The notes under the pieces were generated by a model, which ran no database searches, had not been told where the DNA came from, and was given only the letters and a program-made list of their open reading frames with translations. A program made the position numbers and the translations under genes. Of a DNA stretch of 34,525 nt, positions 1 to 34,525 are shown piece by piece. Origin of the DNA: an uncultured Alphaproteobacteria bacterium. Its GTDB lineage: Bacteria; Pseudomonadota; Alphaproteobacteria; CAAHEQ01; UBA3637. Each line of letters opens with the position of its first letter. Position 1 is the stretch's first letter. The DNA lies in contig CASECI010000020.1 of assembly GCA_949286465.1 (NCBI GenBank), forward strand, positions 1-34,525, in the 5' to 3' direction.

Positions 1-2
1 GT

Positions 3-1640
3 ATCCCTGCCTGTTCCGGTTGTCAGTCTTGCAGAGAGGGAACCTGTTATGATAATAATGCTTTATGTGGAACAAATGAGGTTTGTTCTTCTGGGACTTG
101 TACTTGTGCTCCCGGCGCTATTGAATGTCAAGGAAGTTGTCATGTATGTCCGGAAGGCTATTCTCTTGATACCTTGACATGCTCTTGTACATGTGATCCT
201 CAAGAATGCCCAGAAAATGCGACTTGGAATAGTTTAACCTGTTCCTGTGAATGTATTGAAGGATATGATATGTGTAATAACACATGTCATCCTCAATGCA
301 GTGGTTCTGGCATGACGGGAGAAAGAGATCCTGATACTTGTGCGTGCATCTGTCTTGAAGGCACCAATGCAGAAACTTGTGCTTGCCCAGAAGGGTATGT
401 CTATGTCGATGGACAATGCCAAAGTTTTGAATGCAGAGATGGAACAACTGGACAAACTTTTTTCTGTTATATCAATGGGAAAAGATGCGGAGAATACTGC
501 ACTTACGATGGGAAAAGTTGCGTACATGGAATTTGTTATCCTGATCAATGCCCATCTAATACAACTTTCCGCCAGATGCCATCTCCTTATCAATGGCATG
601 GTTGTCATTCTAAAACGGGGCCTGAATTTTGTACTCGTATTTTTCAAACAACCAATTCAAATTATTGGACATGCTTTGATGAAAATAATGATAGATGTTG
701 TGAGGGAACTGGTTTCGGAGCATGCTCTATAATAGGATCTTGCTATGACACACTGTGCGAAGATCTTGGCGGAACCCCTGCTATGGGAACGCTCGAATAT
801 GCTAAAGGTTGTTTTTTTAAAAATGGTTTAGAGTGTTTTTACCAGAAGAGTGCTTCTGTTTGGGCGTGTTATATGAACGGTACTCTTTGTGGAACATGTC
901 AAAATCCATTAACCTGTTGTCCTAATGCAGAGAAATGTCCTCTCCGTGATTTAAATGGAAATCCTACAACATATAATCCTGAAGATAGAAGTTGTACAAA
1001 TGGTGAAATTTCCTGCATCGGAAAAAATTGTTATAGAGAAGGTACTTCTTGTGGAAAATTATGCCAAGGTTCAATATTTGGCGTTTGCACAATCGGTGAT
1101 TGCTATCCCAAGAGTTGCCCCGGTGGATTTACATATGCTTATGTCAAGCCTCAAGATGGCTGGGGTTGTGTAAAGGGTTCTCTGGCTTGTATAGCTCAAC
1201 GTACTTCAGGTTATAGTGAAGAACAACAATATGCGTGTTACTATAATGACCAACTCTGCGGAACTCTATGCACATCATCAGGAAATTGTTTAAGTCCTTT
1301 ACTTCCTGAATGTAATAATGGAAAGTGTATTTTAGGTCGTTCTATCCCGATGGATTCTCAAGGGAAACCAACATGCGATACAAGTGTCTGTAAAAGTGCG
1401 ATAGAACAGGGATGGTGTTGTCCGGAAGGACATACATATGCGAACGGTGGCTGTACTCTTATTGAGTGTCCAGAAGGACAAATAGCTGATGAAGGAGGAA
1501 TTTGCAAGACTGCTTGTAAAAACAATGCTGAAGTCTTAGATTGCCTCTGTTCAGGAACAACTCATACGAATCAATTCAATGCTAAAATTTGTTGCGAAAG
1601 TGGATATACCTGGAATGAAAACTCTCAAACTTGCCAATAA
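3..1640 (+). CDS. Very Cys-rich repeat protein, C-terminal part (5' end outside window)
   Basis: The frame is open from the left edge of the window and ends at TAA 1638-1640, giving about 545 visible residues. The real start lies upstream. Roughly 79 of these residues are Cys (about 14%), with many Gly, Asn and Thr and no membrane segment in the visible part. Short EGF-like turns such as CPEGY and CxCxC recur at both ends. The centre is built of degenerate 58-70 residue repeats, listed separately. Such Cys density implies many disulfides and therefore an exported, surface or extracellular protein, but the signal peptide would lie upstream. I do not recognise a named family. The EGF-like look does not establish function. 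Codon use and AT content match the neighbouring bacterial genes, so contamination is unlikely. Coding status is near certain, function unknown. Confidence 0.85.
   Translation: MPACSGCQSCREGTCYDNNALCGTNEVCSSGTCTCAPGAIECQGSCHVCPEGYSLDTLTCSCTCDPQECPENATWNSLTCSCECIEGYDMCNNTCHPQCSGSGMTGERDPDTCACICLEGTNAETCACPEGYVYVDGQCQSFECRDGTTGQTFFCYINGKRCGEYCTYDGKSCVHGICYPDQCPSNTTFRQMPSPYQWHGCHSKTGPEFCTRIFQTTNSNYWTCFDENNDRCCEGTGFGACSIIGSCYDTLCEDLGGTPAMGTLEYAKGCFFKNGLECFYQKSASVWACYMNGTLCGTCQNPLTCCPNAEKCPLRDLNGNPTTYNPEDRSCTNGEISCIGKNCYREGTSCGKLCQGSIFGVCTIGDCYPKSCPGGFTYAYVKPQDGWGCVKGSLACIAQRTSGYSEEQQYACYYNDQLCGTLCTSSGNCLSPLLPECNNGKCILGRSIPMDSQGKPTCDTSVCKSAIEQGWCCPEGHTYANGGCTLIECPEGQIADEGGICKTACKNNAEVLDCLCSGTTHTNQFNAKICCESGYTWNENSQTCQ
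459..1310 (+). repeat. Degenerate tandem Cys-rich protein repeats within the first gene
   Basis: A module recurs with the form G/S-C, about 6-8 residues, C, about 4-17 residues, aromatic-x-C-Y/F-x-N/D-x3-C-G/C-x2-C, then a G-x-C-Y-x3-C tail. Cores are seen near 460 (FFCYINGKRCGEYC), 664 (WTCFDENNDRCC), 859 (WACYMNGTLCGTC), 1008 (a shorter variant ending TSCGKLC) and 1229 (YACYYNDQLCGTLC). Successive G/S-C starts lie about 58-69 codons apart. The copies have diverged strongly at DNA level, so these are old protein repeats and not recent duplications. Confidence 0.7.
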
Positions 1641-1644
1641 AAAA

Positions 1645-1675
1645 GAAAATAGGAATTTTAATAAAAGCTATTTTC
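1645..1675 (+). terminator. Weak AT-rich inverted repeat after the Cys-rich gene
   Basis: GAAAATAG at 1645-1652 pairs perfectly with CTATTTTC at 1668-1675 around a 15-base loop, starting four bases after the stop codon. The stem is short and AT-rich and has no real T-run after it, so it is at best a weak terminator. The rest of 1641-1798 shows no gene. A possible -10 (TATATA, 1780-1785) for the next gene lacks a convincing -35. Confidence 0.25.
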
Positions 1676-8878: not shown

Positions 8879-11692
8879 ATGTTATTATCTCATCTTTTTA
8901 AAACAGCTCAAATTACTCTGCCAATTCAAGAGGACATCGACATACTCGGTCTTGCAAGAGACTCTCGAGAAGTAAAGAAAGGCTTTCTTTTTGCCGCAAT
9001 GGATGGTTATCAAGGCAGTGGTTCTTCTTATGTTTCTGAAGCAATTCAAAAAGGAGCTGTCGTTATCATAACAAATCACCCTGGTTTAGAGGCTTCTGTT
9101 CCTGTTTATTATATCGAACATATTCGTGAAGCCCTTGCTATGATGAGTGTCATTTTTTATCAACCGCATCCACAGCATCTAGCTGCTGTAACAGGAACGA
9201 ATGGGAAAACATCAACAGTTTTCTTCCTGCGTCAAATATGGGAATATGCTGGTCATAAAAGTGCGAGTTTAGGAACTTTAGGTGTTCAATCCAAAGATTA
9301 TACACATTACAGTGGAATGACTACTTCTGCAAGTGTAACCCTTAATCAAGAGCTTCAGGCTTTAGCAAAAACCGGCGTAACACATGCTGCCCTTGAGGCA
9401 TCAAGTCATGGACTAGATCAGCATCGTTTAGATGGACTAACTTTTGAAGCTACTGCTTTTACAAATCTAACAAGAGACCATTTAGATTATCATAAAACCA
9501 TGGAAAATTATTTAAAAGCTAAAATGCGTCTCTTTACTGATTTAACAGCTAAGAATGGAACGGCTGTTCTGAATGCGGATATTCCAGAATTTGATTTAAT
9601 TTTCAAAACTTGTCAGTTTCATGGCCTTAAAATTCTATCCTATGGGCATAATGGGAAAGAACTGAGACTCATCAAGCAAACACTTCATGAAATTGGACAA
9701 GATTTGACCTTAGAAGTTTTAGGCAAAGAATATCAAGTTTCACTACCTGTTGCAGGAGCCTTTCAAGGAATGAATGTGCTATGTGCACTTGGATTAGCTT
9801 TAGGAACTGGAGTCGATGCTCATACAGCCATAAAAGCTCTTCAAAATTTAAAAGCGCCTGATGGTCGTATGGAACTCGTTGGAAGGACATTAGACGGAGC
9901 AAGTATTTTTGTCGATTACGCACATACGCCTGATGGGTTAGAAACAGCTTTAAAATCTCTTCGACAACACACAAAGAATAAATTGCATGTTTTATTCGGA
10001 TGTGGAGGAAATAGAGATTCTGGAAAACGACCGATGATGGGTAAAATAGCAAATGAGCTTGCCGATGAGGTTATTGTCACAGATGACAATCCTCGTTTTG
10101 AAGATGCGGCTCAGATTCGGCATCAAATTTTATCTGCTGCTCCTAAAGCAATCGAGATTGACGACAGAGGCGTTGCCATTTATACAGCCATTTCTCGACT
10201 TAAGAAGGGAGATGTTCTTCTTTTGGCAGGAAAAGGTCATGAAGAAGGGCAACTCATCAACGGTATGATGTATGCTTTTAATGATAAATTACAAGCATTA
10301 TATGCTCTAAAAGCGCTTCAAGAAAAGCCCTTATGGACGAAACTAGAATTAGAAGAAGCAACCGGAAGTACATTGCCGGAGAACATTCAAGCATTTGGTG
10401 TTTCTATTGATACACGGACGATACAACCTGGAGATATTTTTATTGCCTTAAAAGGCGAAAAACTTGATGGGCATGATTATGTAGAGCAAGCTCTCAAAAA
10501 GGGAGCTGTTGTAGCTATCGTAGAAAAACCTATTATTATTCCGGATACAGATAAATTATTAGTCGTCTCAGATACAGGAAAAGCTCTTTATCAGATGGCA
10601 ACATATGCTAAAAAAAGATCCTCTGCTGTTCGCATCGGAATCACGGGAAGTTCCGGCAAAACAACAACAAAAGAAATGTTGATAAAGGCTTTATCAACTC
10701 AAGGAAAAGTTCATGCAACCACAGGAAATCTTAATAATGAATGGGGCGTTCCTTTGACACTCGCACGACTTCCCAAAGAAACTGATTACGCCATTATCGA
10801 AATGGGAATGAATCACTTTGGAGAATTAACCCGTCTTTCTCAATTAGTCGAACCCAATATTTCTCTCATTACTATGATTGGTTCTGCACACAGGGAATTT
10901 TTTAAATCTGAGGAAGATATCGCAACGGCTAAATCAGAAATCTTTTCTCATATGCCGTCCGATGGAATTGCTGTATTGAATAAAGATTCTGAATTCTTTG
11001 ACTTTTTAAAGCAAAAAGCAAAAGACTATGGCATTCAAAAAGTTTTATCTTTTGGACAAAATAAAACAGCGGATTGCCATTTAACTCAAATGACAATGAA
11101 TCATAACACAACCTCCTTTCAAGCGAATGTATTAGGAGAGAACGTAAATATTACTATGAATTTAGCTGGTATTCACTTCATTCAAAATGCCTTGGGTGTT
11201 TTAACTATTGTAAAAGCATTAAATGGTAACTTAGAAAAAGCATGCCATGGTTTATCTCAAATGTCTGCGGTCAAAGGTCGTGGAGTTTTTGTACAAACAA
11301 ATCATAAAGGAAAAGAGATAACAATTATTGATGATGCCTATAACGCTAATCCGTCTTCTATGAAAGCTTCAATTCAAGTACTCGGCTTACAAAAAGGTCG
11401 CAAGATTGCTGTTTTAGGAGATATGCTAGAATTAGGAGAATTTTCTGATGAGTTGCATATCAGTCTTCTTGATGAATTATTAAAAATTCAAGTCGATCAG
11501 GTGTATGCCGTCGGACCTCAAATGAAAAAACTTTTTGATAAACTGCCTCCAGATAAAAAAGGAGCGTGGAGCGAAACAGCACAAAATATTTTGCCAACAT
11601 TAGAGGAAAATTTACAAAATAATGATACTCTTCTCATCAAAGCATCGAATGGAATGAGGCTATATGAAATTGTTCAAGCATTAATGAAATAG
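8879..11692 (+). CDS. murE-murF: Fused MurE-MurF peptidoglycan precursor ligase
   Basis: A single 937-residue frame joins two cytoplasmic ligases that act consecutively. Residues 1 to about 480 are MurE, which adds the third residue to UDP-MurNAc-Ala-Glu; its P-loop is TGTNGKTS (105-112). DNPR at 403-406 is the motif of meso-diaminopimelate-specific MurE enzymes. Residues about 490-937 are MurF, which adds D-Ala-D-Ala, with its own P-loop TGSSGKTTT (589-597) and MGMNHFGE. Elsewhere these are usually separate neighbouring genes; fused MurE-MurF proteins are known. No stop or frameshift lies at the junction. It begins 9 bases after ftsI and ends 8 bases before mraY. Confidence 0.95.
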   Translation: MLLSHLFKTAQITLPIQEDIDILGLARDSREVKKGFLFAAMDGYQGSGSSYVSEAIQKGAVVIITNHPGLEASVPVYYIEHIREALAMMSVIFYQPHPQHLAAVTGTNGKTSTVFFLRQIWEYAGHKSASLGTLGVQSKDYTHYSGMTTSASVTLNQELQALAKTGVTHAALEASSHGLDQHRLDGLTFEATAFTNLTRDHLDYHKTMENYLKAKMRLFTDLTAKNGTAVLNADIPEFDLIFKTCQFHGLKILSYGHNGKELRLIKQTLHEIGQDLTLEVLGKEYQVSLPVAGAFQGMNVLCALGLALGTGVDAHTAIKALQNLKAPDGRMELVGRTLDGASIFVDYAHTPDGLETALKSLRQHTKNKLHVLFGCGGNRDSGKRPMMGKIANELADEVIVTDDNPRFEDAAQIRHQILSAAPKAIEIDDRGVAIYTAISRLKKGDVLLLAGKGHEEGQLINGMMYAFNDKLQALYALKALQEKPLWTKLELEEATGSTLPENIQAFGVSIDTRTIQPGDIFIALKGEKLDGHDYVEQALKKGAVVAIVEKPIIIPDTDKLLVVSDTGKALYQMATYAKKRSSAVRIGITGSSGKTTTKEMLIKALSTQGKVHATTGNLNNEWGVPLTLARLPKETDYAIIEMGMNHFGELTRLSQLVEPNISLITMIGSAHREFFKSEEDIATAKSEIFSHMPSDGIAVLNKDSEFFDFLKQKAKDYGIQKVLSFGQNKTADCHLTQMTMNHNTTSFQANVLGENVNITMNLAGIHFIQNALGVLTIVKALNGNLEKACHGLSQMSAVKGRGVFVQTNHKGKEITIIDDAYNANPSSMKASIQVLGLQKGRKIAVLGDMLELGEFSDELHISLLDELLKIQVDQVYAVGPQMKKLFDKLPPDKKGAWSETAQNILPTLEENLQNNDTLLIKASNGMRLYEIVQALMK

Positions 11693-25400: not shown

Positions 25401-25808
25401 CTAGGTAGCTGATGAATATGAATTAAATGTAATCACACCATTGTCGATTTCAACTGTACCGCCAGAACGATTATCCATAGCTTCTAATACCTTTTCAGAA
25501 GCACCAGTAACTGTTACGACAGGTTGATCAACTTCTGTTGCATCAGATGTAATCTCGATACCAGTTGCACCACCCGGCAATGTTTCCCCATCAAGAATTG
25601 TTTGGCAGCTACCTGTATCCATTGTTGAGCCATCACCATTTGTTTGAGCAACAACAACACAACGAGATGCATAATCTAAAATTGTGTTGGCACGATGACG
25701 GTTCATTGCCATTGTATAACCAGCCAAACCACCGATGGACAATACACCGATAATGGCTAAAACACCTAACATTTCGATCATTGAACGACCAGCTTCTGTT
25801 TTTTTCAT
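25401..25808 (-). CDS. Type IV prepilin-like protein with Arg at +1
   Basis: The 135-residue protein starts with MKKTEAG, a short positively charged leader ending in Gly, followed by RSMIEMLGVLAIIGVLSIGG. This is the layout of prepilin peptidase substrates: Gly at -1, Glu at +5 and a hydrophobic helix. The +1 residue is Arg, where Phe, Met or another uncharged residue is usual. The rest is a small polar domain with two cysteines (50 and 68), possibly one disulfide. I chose the start at 25808 because AAAGGA lies 8 bases upstream and a longer frame would start inside the promoter. It is monocistronic, with its own promoter and terminator. It may be a pilin or pseudopilin; the assembly machinery is not in the window. 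Confidence 0.85.
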   Translation of the reverse strand: MKKTEAGRSMIEMLGVLAIIGVLSIGGLAGYTMAMNRHRANTILDYASRCVVVAQTNGDGSTMDTGSCQTILDGETLPGGATGIEITSDATEVDQPVVTVTGASEKVLEAMDNRSGGTVEIDNGVITFNSYSSAT

Positions 25809-28943: not shown

Positions 28944-28947
<4 letters not shown>

Positions 28948-30755
28948 CTAGACTTCTTCTCTATAAATATCTGAACAAACCCTTTTAAAACACGACCTAA
29001 TTCTTCTTCCAGTTTGTTATCCAGATTATCTGCATGTCCTATCTTCTGAAGCAACTCTGGATCTTCTAATTGTATATGCTCTAATAATCCTTCCTCAAAT
29101 CTTAATATATCTTTAGGCTCCAATAATTCTAAATAACCTCGAACTGCCGCGTAAATCGAAATAAATTCTTCCTCAAAAGATAAGGGATGATGTACTTTTT
29201 GTTTCATCATCTCCGTAATGCGAACGCCCTTCTTCAACATATTCTGGCTAGACACATCTAAATCTGAAGCAATCTGCGCAAACGAAAGCATTTCACGATA
29301 TTGTGCCAAATCGAGCTTTAAAGATGAGGATATCTTCGCTAAAAGTGGACGTTGTGCTTTTGACCCAACTCGACTGACCGATAGACCAACATTAACCGCC
29401 GGACGTATCCCTTCATGAAATAAACTACTCTCTAAAAAAATTTGTCCATCTGTAATAGATATAACATTTGTTGGAATATACGCTGATACATCTCCCTCTT
29501 GTGTCTCTACAACCGGAATCGCTGTTAAAGAGCCTCCGCCCTTTTCATCATTCAACATGGCCGCTCGCTCTAACAAACGTGAATGTAAATAAAAAATATC
29601 TCCAGGATAAGCCTCTCTTCCCGGAGGACGTCTAAGAAGTAACGAAATCTGACGATAAGCATTTGCATGTTTCGATAAATCATCATAAAAAATAACCGCA
29701 TTCATATGATGATCACGGAAATATTCTCCAATCGTACAACCAGTAAAAGGAGCTATATACTGCAATGAAGCTGAGTCTGAGGCTGAGGCTGAGACGACAA
29801 TTGTATATTCCATAGCTCCATAATTCTCCAAAGTCCGAACAACTTCTGCAACCGTCGACAACTTCTGTCCAATCGCTACATATATACAGAATAGCTTCTC
29901 TTCCTTTCGGAGAGCCGCATCATTTCTCTTCTTTTGAGCAATAATGGAATCCACAATTAATGATGTCTTACCTGTTTGACGATCCCCTACAATTAATTCT
30001 CTCTGTCCCAGCCCTATCGGAACAAGAGCATCTATAACTTTAATTCCTGTTTGAAATGGTTTCTTAACCGTTTGCCTATCAATAATCCCTGGAGATGGCC
30101 TTTCTATAGGTAAATAAGAGTACGCTGATATATCTCCTTTCCCATCTATTGGGTGACCTAATGCATCTACAACACGACCAAGCAATGTTTCTCCTACAGG
30201 AACTTTTATAACGTCTCCCGTTTGGATTGCTATATCTCCCTCATCTAAAGAATTATCATTGCCTAAAGTTACAACATCCGAAAATTCACTATTTAAATTA
30301 AAAACAATCCCTTGTAAATTATCTGGAAAGTCTATCAATTCACCTGCCTTAGTCGACTTCATACCAGATACACGTGCTATTCCATCTTTTACGGAAATAA
30401 CACGCCCCACCTGTTCTACACGTGGTTTTATTCTTCCTTCTGCCATGAGCTTTTGTAATAGCTGACGAAATTCATCATCAGATAAGTGAACAAGAGAAAT
30501 ATCTTGCAGCGCTTTTTGAAGTACCCTAAGTTTTTGCTTAACTGAAGTATCAATCAAAGATGATCCTATCTGTAACTGAAAACCACTCAACAAAGAGGGA
30601 TCAATTTTGATGTTTAAATGAAGTGTTTTTATCCCTAATTTCTGGCACAATAAATCACTGAGTTGTTTCCTTTGTTCCCTAGACAAAGAAGAAGCTGTTA
30701 TAACATCAACAGTAAGCTCTTCAAACTTATACTCTATTTTCTTTTTAGTTGGCAT
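28944..30755 (-). CDS. atpHA (fusion): ATP synthase fused delta C-terminal domain and alpha subunit
   Basis: Residues about 92-603 form a complete alpha subunit: N-terminal helix (91-105), beta-barrel, P-loop GDRQTGKT (257-264) and the arginine finger Arg462 in SVSRVGSKAQ. The first 90 residues are extra (603 in total, against about 505-513). They match the C-terminal domain of delta (AtpH): VDVITASSLSREQ, then IDPSLLSGF and IGSSLIDTSVKQKL, the same order and spacing as in delta (E. coli VDVISAAALSEQQ, IDGSVRGRL). The helical N-terminal domain of delta is absent. Delta normally links the top of the head to the b stalk. The ATG has AAGGGG 8 bases upstream, so this is the true start. The order delta-alpha-gamma-beta-epsilon fits the usual operon with atpH cut down and fused. 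Confidence 0.9.
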
Positions 30756-33685: not shown

Positions 33686-34525
33686 ATGAGACATACAGAA
33701 TTAAAAAAACAAGAAAAAGGTTCTTTAATGGTAGAAGTTCTTGCCGTATTAGGTCTTCTTGCTCTAATTACGCCTTTGCTTTACCAACAAATCAATCGCC
33801 GGAATGAAGAAATTTCTAACGCAAATATTGCAACAGAAGTTCGAACAATAAAAGATGCAGTCAGTGCTTATATTCAATCTTATGAACAACGCCTTGCAGC
33901 TCAAGATTGTAACCTCATGTTAAATGGTGAGTATAAAAATGTAACAAGTATTCAAGAATGTGTTTCAGCAGAGGGATCTTATAGTAATGAATTACAAGGA
34001 ACAGGCTTCTATCCTGGAATTGATGAAATTTTGGATGATTATGATATTAACTTATTCGCTTATACTCTCCCAGCGGGCTATCAACAATATGATGAAAATG
34101 CGGATGCTCGTGTCCAAGTATATCGCCCTGTTATTTACGGTGTCATTACAGAAAATGCAGTTGATGAAAACCGACCATTAAGAAGATCAGCTAAGATAGC
34201 ATCTCTTATTGGGCTAGATGGTGGCGTCGTTATGGGAAATACCATCAATGGAATGGATGGGACTTGGATTACTGAAAATACAATGAATGCCCCTGATCGA
34301 GCCATTGCAGCAATAACAGCCTATGATGCCGCGACGAACTCAGCAATCTTGACAGATGTAAAAATTGAACATTTTAAGGGAGATACTCTACAAGCGAATA
34401 CAGGTGTTGTAAATAAATTACATGCTCCAACATTTTTCTCTGTCGGAGATGTTACTTACAACTGTGTAGAAAATTACGGAAATGATACCCTTGACGTTCG
34501 AAAATCTGGAGACACTCTTACAGCG
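33686..34525 (+). CDS. Prepilin-like protein, N-terminal part (runs off window)
   Basis: The frame is open from ATG 33686 to the window edge, 280 codons. AAAGAGG lies 5 bases upstream. Residues 1-12 form a charged leader ending in KG; SLMVE follows, giving Gly at -1 and Glu at +5, then a hydrophobic helix (about 16-31). This is a class III signal cut by prepilin peptidase. A likely helical stretch (IATEVRTIKDAVSAYIQSYEQ) and a large domain with few Cys follow. The size exceeds ordinary major pilins and recalls minor or tip pilins of the PilV kind, but that is only a resemblance. Confidence 0.78.
   Translation, partial: MRHTELKKQEKGSLMVEVLAVLGLLALITPLLYQQINRRNEEISNANIATEVRTIKDAVSAYIQSYEQRLAAQDCNLMLNGEYKNVTSIQECVSAEGSYSNELQGTGFYPGIDEILDDYDINLFAYTLPAGYQQYDENADARVQVYRPVIYGVITENAVDENRPLRRSAKIASLIGLDGGVVMGNTINGMDGTWITENTMNAPDRAIAAITAYDAATNSAILTDVKIEHFKGDTLQANTGVVNKLHAPTFFSVGDVTYNCVENYGNDTLDVRKSGDTLTA

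Follow-up and report, generated by a model that had tools for sequence, protein, structure and literature searches.

What kind of protein carries 79 cysteines in 545 residues in an alphaproteobacterium, and where would it act? The question is raised by the first open reading frame (ORF) of the window, by which we mean the whole 34,525-nucleotide stretch analysed here: the complete contig C20 of the draft genome GCA_949286465.1 (G000, hereafter the own genome; 1,243,490 bases in 58 contigs). Two congeneric relatives, G001 and G002, were used for comparison; G001 belongs to a different species from the own genome. Our analysis indicates that the window ORF probably encodes the C-terminal portion of a modular type IV pilin with a Cys-rich module, one of a repertoire that recombination has diversified both within species and across them. 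This apparent interspecies exchange of cassettes is the main feature of the locus and is not visible from the window alone. Modular minor pilins as a kind are already known. For a Cys-rich module with no named family, its expansion throughout the host bacterial family and its interspecies mosaic structure, we found no description in the open-licence literature.

Sequence features of the window ORF

The ORF is one uninterrupted frame of 545 codons on the plus strand. It has no start codon of its own and is without its head, because the frame runs off the start of contig C20. The window contains the following features of interest.

3..1640, plus strand: C-terminal, Cys-rich portion, 545 aa with 79 Cys, of a large and presumably prepilin-headed protein that is truncated on its 5' side by the contig edge
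3..422, plus strand: conserved Cys block (aa 1–140); window 1–438 is 92% identical in nucleotides to the own paralogue C16
423..1412, plus strand: variable middle cassette (aa 141–470); 96% aa and 95.2% nt identical to G001:C17
1413..1640, plus strand: conserved tail; the last 55 aa are 93% identical to own C52 and 75% to G001:C17
1799..5203, plus strand: MFS-like transporter, acyltransferase and AMP-binding fusion, 1134 aa; synteny anchor, 86% aa identity in G001
25401..25808, minus strand: small prepilin-like protein, candidate pilin; 135 aa, GRSMIEML head, two Cys in the mature part
33686..34525, plus strand: possible minor pilin, cut by the contig end; GSLMVEVLAVLGLLALI head; weak match

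The cysteine count given in an earlier note on this DNA, about 79 in 545 residues, stands: Cys makes up 14.5% of the ORF, compared with 0.85% (63 of 7432 residues) in 15 core genes elsewhere in the window. The degenerate modules of 58–70 residues that it also described are borne out only in so far as a motif recurs. The pattern C-[YF]-x-[NDE]-[GDN]-x(1,2)-C-[CG] occurs five times, at residues 15, 155, 289, 343 and 412, compared with at most one copy in each of 2000 shuffles of the ORF. The copies are spaced by 140, 134, 54 and 69 residues, and a degenerate copy near residue 225, read by eye, would divide the 134-residue interval into about 70 + 64. The autocorrelation of Cys positions reaches 7.9 at best against a 95% limit of 9.6 for shuffled sequences, so that no period is significant, and BLAST of the ORF against itself detected no internal repeat. 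The ORF is not a regular repeat. By comparison with related genes, it consists of a conserved block (residues 1–140), a variable middle (residues 141–470) and a conserved tail.

Searches of the ORF against Pfam (E ≤ 1) and NCBIfam matched no family, PDB sequence searches, run with the ORF as well as a seven-sequence profile, returned no chains, and an Rfam search of the window gave no match. No curated profile or solved structure of the known Cys-rich domain families (EGF-like and others) matches the Cys region.

Paralogues and prepilin heads

A DNA search for paralogues located 17 matching places in the own genome, the window ORF included. The best is C16, with 92% identity over window 1–438; the variable middle shows at most 37% amino-acid identity to every other own-genome gene compared. 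The complete paralogues (two on C32 and one on C5, with that on C23 nearly complete) begin with GRSMxExLAVLAIMGILTIG, a class III prepilin signal with a polar leader, a G cleavage site, E at +5 and a hydrophobic helix (summary motif GRSMxEMLAVLAIxG). The paralogue C32b is matched by TIGR02532 with 18.5 bits (cut-off 16.3). In these proteins the signal is followed by a head of ~150 aa, the conserved Cys block, the variable Cys-rich middle and the conserved tail; an extra Cys-rich module that bears no Pfam or NCBIfam name is thus fused C-terminally to a pilin module. This architecture supports the location outside the cytoplasm implied by the earlier note; the export signal belongs to the prepilin class, however, and differs from an ordinary Sec signal. 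For the window ORF itself a head of this type is presumed from its paralogues. Contig C46 ends in a head, the last residues of which precede the starting point of C20, as judged by paralogue C16.

When the head was used as the query, 37 places in the own genome were matched at E ≤ 0.1, the last of which are doubtful. The head-motif expression gave 36 matches in the fetched stretches of this genome; removal of C29 (eight residues) as spurious left 35 ORFs, of which 15 are truncated at a contig boundary. The Cys region keeps its status as a sequence with no known-family match, but the protein does not stand alone, being one of about 35 prepilin-headed paralogues. Many contig edges of the own genome fall inside genes of this family. 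Draft genomes of the host group consequently probably undercount these genes and may mis-join them, and short-read genomes of the host bacterial family can be expected to break at them.

Heads were surveyed in 57 genomes, 33 of the host bacterial family (own genome included) and 24 of other families in the class. All 33 host-family genomes contain them, from 10 to at least 70 each, compared with two of the 24 other Alphaproteobacteria sampled (one and three matches). Within its own lineage, the description of the protein as unusual therefore finds no support. The 333-aa variable domain of the window ORF is found in seven of 43 host-family genomes, from three genera, and a scan of named genomes gave two loci, both from one MAG (BRZ_AF__bin11) that is apparently the same genome as G001 (identical contig coordinates).

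The gene at the far end of the window (33686..34525) matches the NCBIfam ComGE model with E = 0.0013 and 18.7 bits, below the cut-off of 49, and its product is 40.7% identical over 59 aa to that of a gene beside the G002 pil operon. AlphaFold2 models, one built with three sequences (mean pLDDT 44.4) and one of the small window pilin (single sequence; mean pLDDT 45.5), were too poor for a fold search and support neither a pilin fold nor a structure of the Cys module.

Pilus machinery genes

The gene set of the genus is, as judged by homology, that of an R64-like type IVb pilus. The operon is complete in G002 (stretch L165), in the order TcpQ protein, PilN-type secretin, PilO, PilP, ATPase and T2SSF, and its secretin scores highest with the type IVB PilN model, although at 266.6 bits it falls slightly short of the cut-off of 287.65. 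The own genome encodes a prepilin peptidase and a secretin adjoining a TcpQ-domain protein, on the same contig as homologues of VirB2/3/4. T2SSF was not found in the own draft genome and is found in 40 of 43 genomes of the host bacterial family. The own assembly lacks most of the operon, which is probably lost at the edge of contig C6: where this contig begins, the operon is interrupted within a gene that resembles, in its first part, the PilO-like gene found in the relatives. Two ATPases, one VirB11-like (C7) and one PilT-like (C42), score below their cut-offs and neither was taken as proof of a pilus motor.

These genes bear on two alternatives to a pilus that displays adhesins towards host surfaces. 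The modules might be adhesins resembling PilV of R64/TP114, which choose partners for VirB-type DNA transfer. The R64-like pil operon, the VirB2/3/4 homologues beside secretin genes, a VirB8/9/10/11 cluster on contig C7 and the movement of cassettes between species (see below) are all in keeping with mating; dozens of dispersed loci, however, are unlike a single pilV with a shufflon, and we regard recipient recognition as a rather unlikely function. The second alternative is a type II-like secretion machine, the subunits or substrates of which build a matrix or coat and are not pilus adhesins. Although the ATPase and inner-membrane proteins also match GspE/GspF models, and bulky modules in many copies would suit such a coat, the preference of the secretin for the type IVB PilN model and the presence of PilO/PilP homologues render this improbable. 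The modular pilin is the preferred reading.

Probable cassette exchange between species

The core of the window is 71–73% identical in DNA to G001, compared with 93% between window 156–1645 and G001:C17. Over the variable middle (329 codons) the identity to G001:C17 is 96.0% in protein and 95.2% in DNA, and 109 of 124 four-fold sites are identical, against 105 of 383 in the gene next to the window ORF. The last 25 residues of the ORF are 56% identical to G001:C17 and resemble own paralogues. At the syntenic position in G001 (C91, with the same downstream gene) a gene of the Cys-rich family lies directly upstream, but its middle is only 38% identical. The syntenic locus of G001 thus holds another cassette, and the window cassette is located at different loci in the two genomes. 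Nothing close to the window middle was found in G002 (31–33% identity over most of the domain; at best 40% over 78 aa). The gene-by-gene comparisons drew on 31 stretches of G001 and five of G002, which cover only part of their pilin loci, and missing partners are therefore to be expected.

Two further pairs show locally raised identity. For C32b and G001:C11, which lie inside contigs in both genomes, the four-fold identity is 31% over the head; the middle has 73% in its first part and 47% in its second. In the syntenic pair C12/C53, the identity is ~75% in the distal core gene and 91–100% over the C12 pilin gene.

For a wider comparison of four-fold sites, pairs with fewer than 30 such sites were left out. 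The identity is 0.07–0.51 in 37 of 39 reciprocal pairs from outside the gene family, and the other two (0.62 and 0.80) lie next to pilin genes; by this sequence measure, the silent sites of other genes are near saturation between the own genome and G001. The 11 reciprocal pairs of the Cys-rich family span 0.25–0.93 (rank test against non-family pairs, p = 0.01), and one of them, a 177-aa protein, was admitted solely through the Cys filter and could be the product of an ordinary gene. Nine of the 11 lie at 0.25–0.49, near or only moderately above the core, so that recent exchange of whole cassettes is clear for a minority only. Of the 42 family genes, 16 contain tracts of 100 bp or longer with an identity of 90% or higher (8650 of 48480 nt in all), compared with one of 188 others (243 of 146511 nt), a set that includes short and partner-less ORFs. 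The contrast persists against the 39 reciprocal pairs, the tract-bearing gene included (16/42 versus 1/39; Fisher p = 6.5e-5). The head and middle trees also differ: the three G001 heads form one group (support 0.998), in a grouping by genome, whereas the middles pair across genomes (C32b with C11, 0.996; C20 with C17, 1.0; C23 with C85, 0.993).

The main rival to these findings is an assembly artefact, in which the gene family is real but the sharing of cassettes between species reflects chimeric contigs or contamination between co-occurring species. Chimeras are plausible because short-read assemblers tangle in repeated genes such as these. The truncation of 15 of 35 heads, the contamination estimate of 5.79% for the own genome and the near-confinement of near-identical tracts to this gene family would all fit. 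A chimera should, however, be ~99–100% identical. Most of the shared tracts fall at 90–98% instead, and their differences are dispersed and in part silent; in the window cassette, 15 of 124 four-fold sites differ. Furthermore, the same mosaic is present in C32b and C11, both of them entire genes that lie within contigs and have different neighbours in the two genomes, and the identity of the C12/C53 pair is raised around the gene on syntenic contigs, with the far core at ~75%. An artefact is hence not a likely explanation, and recombination between species remains the interpretation that we favor.

Cysteine parity and probable disulfide formation

Complete large members were taken as those with 300 or more mature residues; the set excludes duplicates and ORFs that lack a 3' end, fall short of 300 aa or extend before base 1 of their stretch. 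The resulting 28 proteins (14 from the own genome, 12 from G001 and two from G002) contain from 35 to 90 Cys, and 27 of them have an even number, that with 35 being the single odd one. The binomial p value of 1.1e-7 is a guide only, as the members are related; in a control set of other complete ORFs the number is even in 85 of 164. This parity points to paired disulfides and supports the oxidative folding suggested in the earlier note. As to the Dsb system sought there, the own genome encodes two DsbA-like proteins, with CSHC and CGYC motifs; a search of this draft genome for DsbB (PF02600) was negative. The DsbA-like protein with the CGYC motif has a Cys-rich N-terminus and is encoded just upstream of a prepilin-headed gene (contig C11, about 60.5–61.5 kb).

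A cytoplasmic metal-binding or thiol-storage protein, suggested by the high Cys content alone, is highly improbable in view of the export-type prepilin heads of the complete paralogues, the even Cys numbers and the lack of a match to any Pfam or NCBIfam metal-binding family. The two outcomes named beforehand as contrary to an exported protein, a full gene with no signal peptide and a match to a cytoplasmic metal-binding family, did not come up.

Proposed function and comparison with known systems

The full protein would comprise a class III (prepilin) signal and a pilin head of ~150 aa, as the complete paralogues do and as is likely for the truncated window copy. The prepilin peptidase, encoded along with machine genes, would cut at G^RSMxE, and the head would be assembled into the R64-like type IVb pilus, in which it would probably be a subunit of the minor or tip kind. 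The Cys-rich part of 300–550 aa would fold outside the cytoplasm into a rigid module, in which the even Cys numbers are consistent with disulfide bonds, and which may serve in recognition or adhesion. This putative role is suggested by analogy with modular pilins (PMC8179133) and PilV (PMC9045228). Homologous recombination would diversify the dozens of loci, with the conserved head, block and tail providing homology and the variable middle moving between loci and congeneric species; the tracts, the silent-site identities, the displaced synteny and the conflicting trees all support this step.

More tentatively, the repertoire might be a communal one: the host bacterial family would keep tens of pilin-anchored, disulfide-locked recognition modules per genome, the variable cores of which circulate between species via conserved ends, by homologous recombination, resembling a shufflon spread over chromosomes and species and not confined to one locus. 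If these proposals are correct, a large display repertoire that undergoes recombination can arise from modular pilins in Alphaproteobacteria that have small genomes and are largely uncultured, cassettes cross between species otherwise near saturation at silent sites, and both the surfaces that these bacteria recognise and their exchange of DNA become testable.

In PilB and PilC of Streptococcus sanguinis, a small pilin module at the N-terminus is joined to a bulky additional one, which is thought to be exposed on the filament (PMC8179133); a survey in the same paper, based on named InterPro domains, lists 264 architectures of modular pilins. The Cys-rich family shares with PilB/PilC the pilin head and the bulky C-terminal module (PMC8179133), but its module matches no known domain, is extremely Cys-rich and occurs in dozens of recombining paralogues per genome. 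PilV of the IncI plasmids R64/TP114 has a constant N-terminal pilin part and alternative distal recognition parts generated by a shufflon (PMC9045228); the genus has an R64-like pil operon and a similar combination of a constant pilin part with alternative distal parts. Unlike the PilV shufflon, the Cys-rich genes are dispersed on contigs with core genes, their variable part lies in the middle and is followed by a conserved tail, and they have tracts common to two species.

In Neisseria, pilE/pilS gene conversion varies the pilin through conserved flanks, using silent partial donors and one expressed locus. Variation through conserved flanks is probably a feature of the Cys-rich family too, but many of its loci are complete open genes with heads (14 large complete ORFs in the own genome). 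The DUF1559 proteins of Planctomycetes are likewise an expanded prepilin-headed family with many paralogues per genome; their domain is different, and we know of no comparable Cys content among them.

Other genes

Within the C7 cluster, the VirB10-like protein has 2266 residues (stretch L022:2931–9731, plus strand), with the VirB10 domain confined to about residues 1917–2132. In the window, a single ORF of 937 aa (8879–11692, plus strand) contains two sets of Mur ligase domains and appears to be a fusion, probably of the MurE–MurF type as judged from its place in the cluster. A 603-aa ORF (28944–30755, minus strand) fuses the ATP synthase alpha chain with the terminal part of an OSCP/delta domain.
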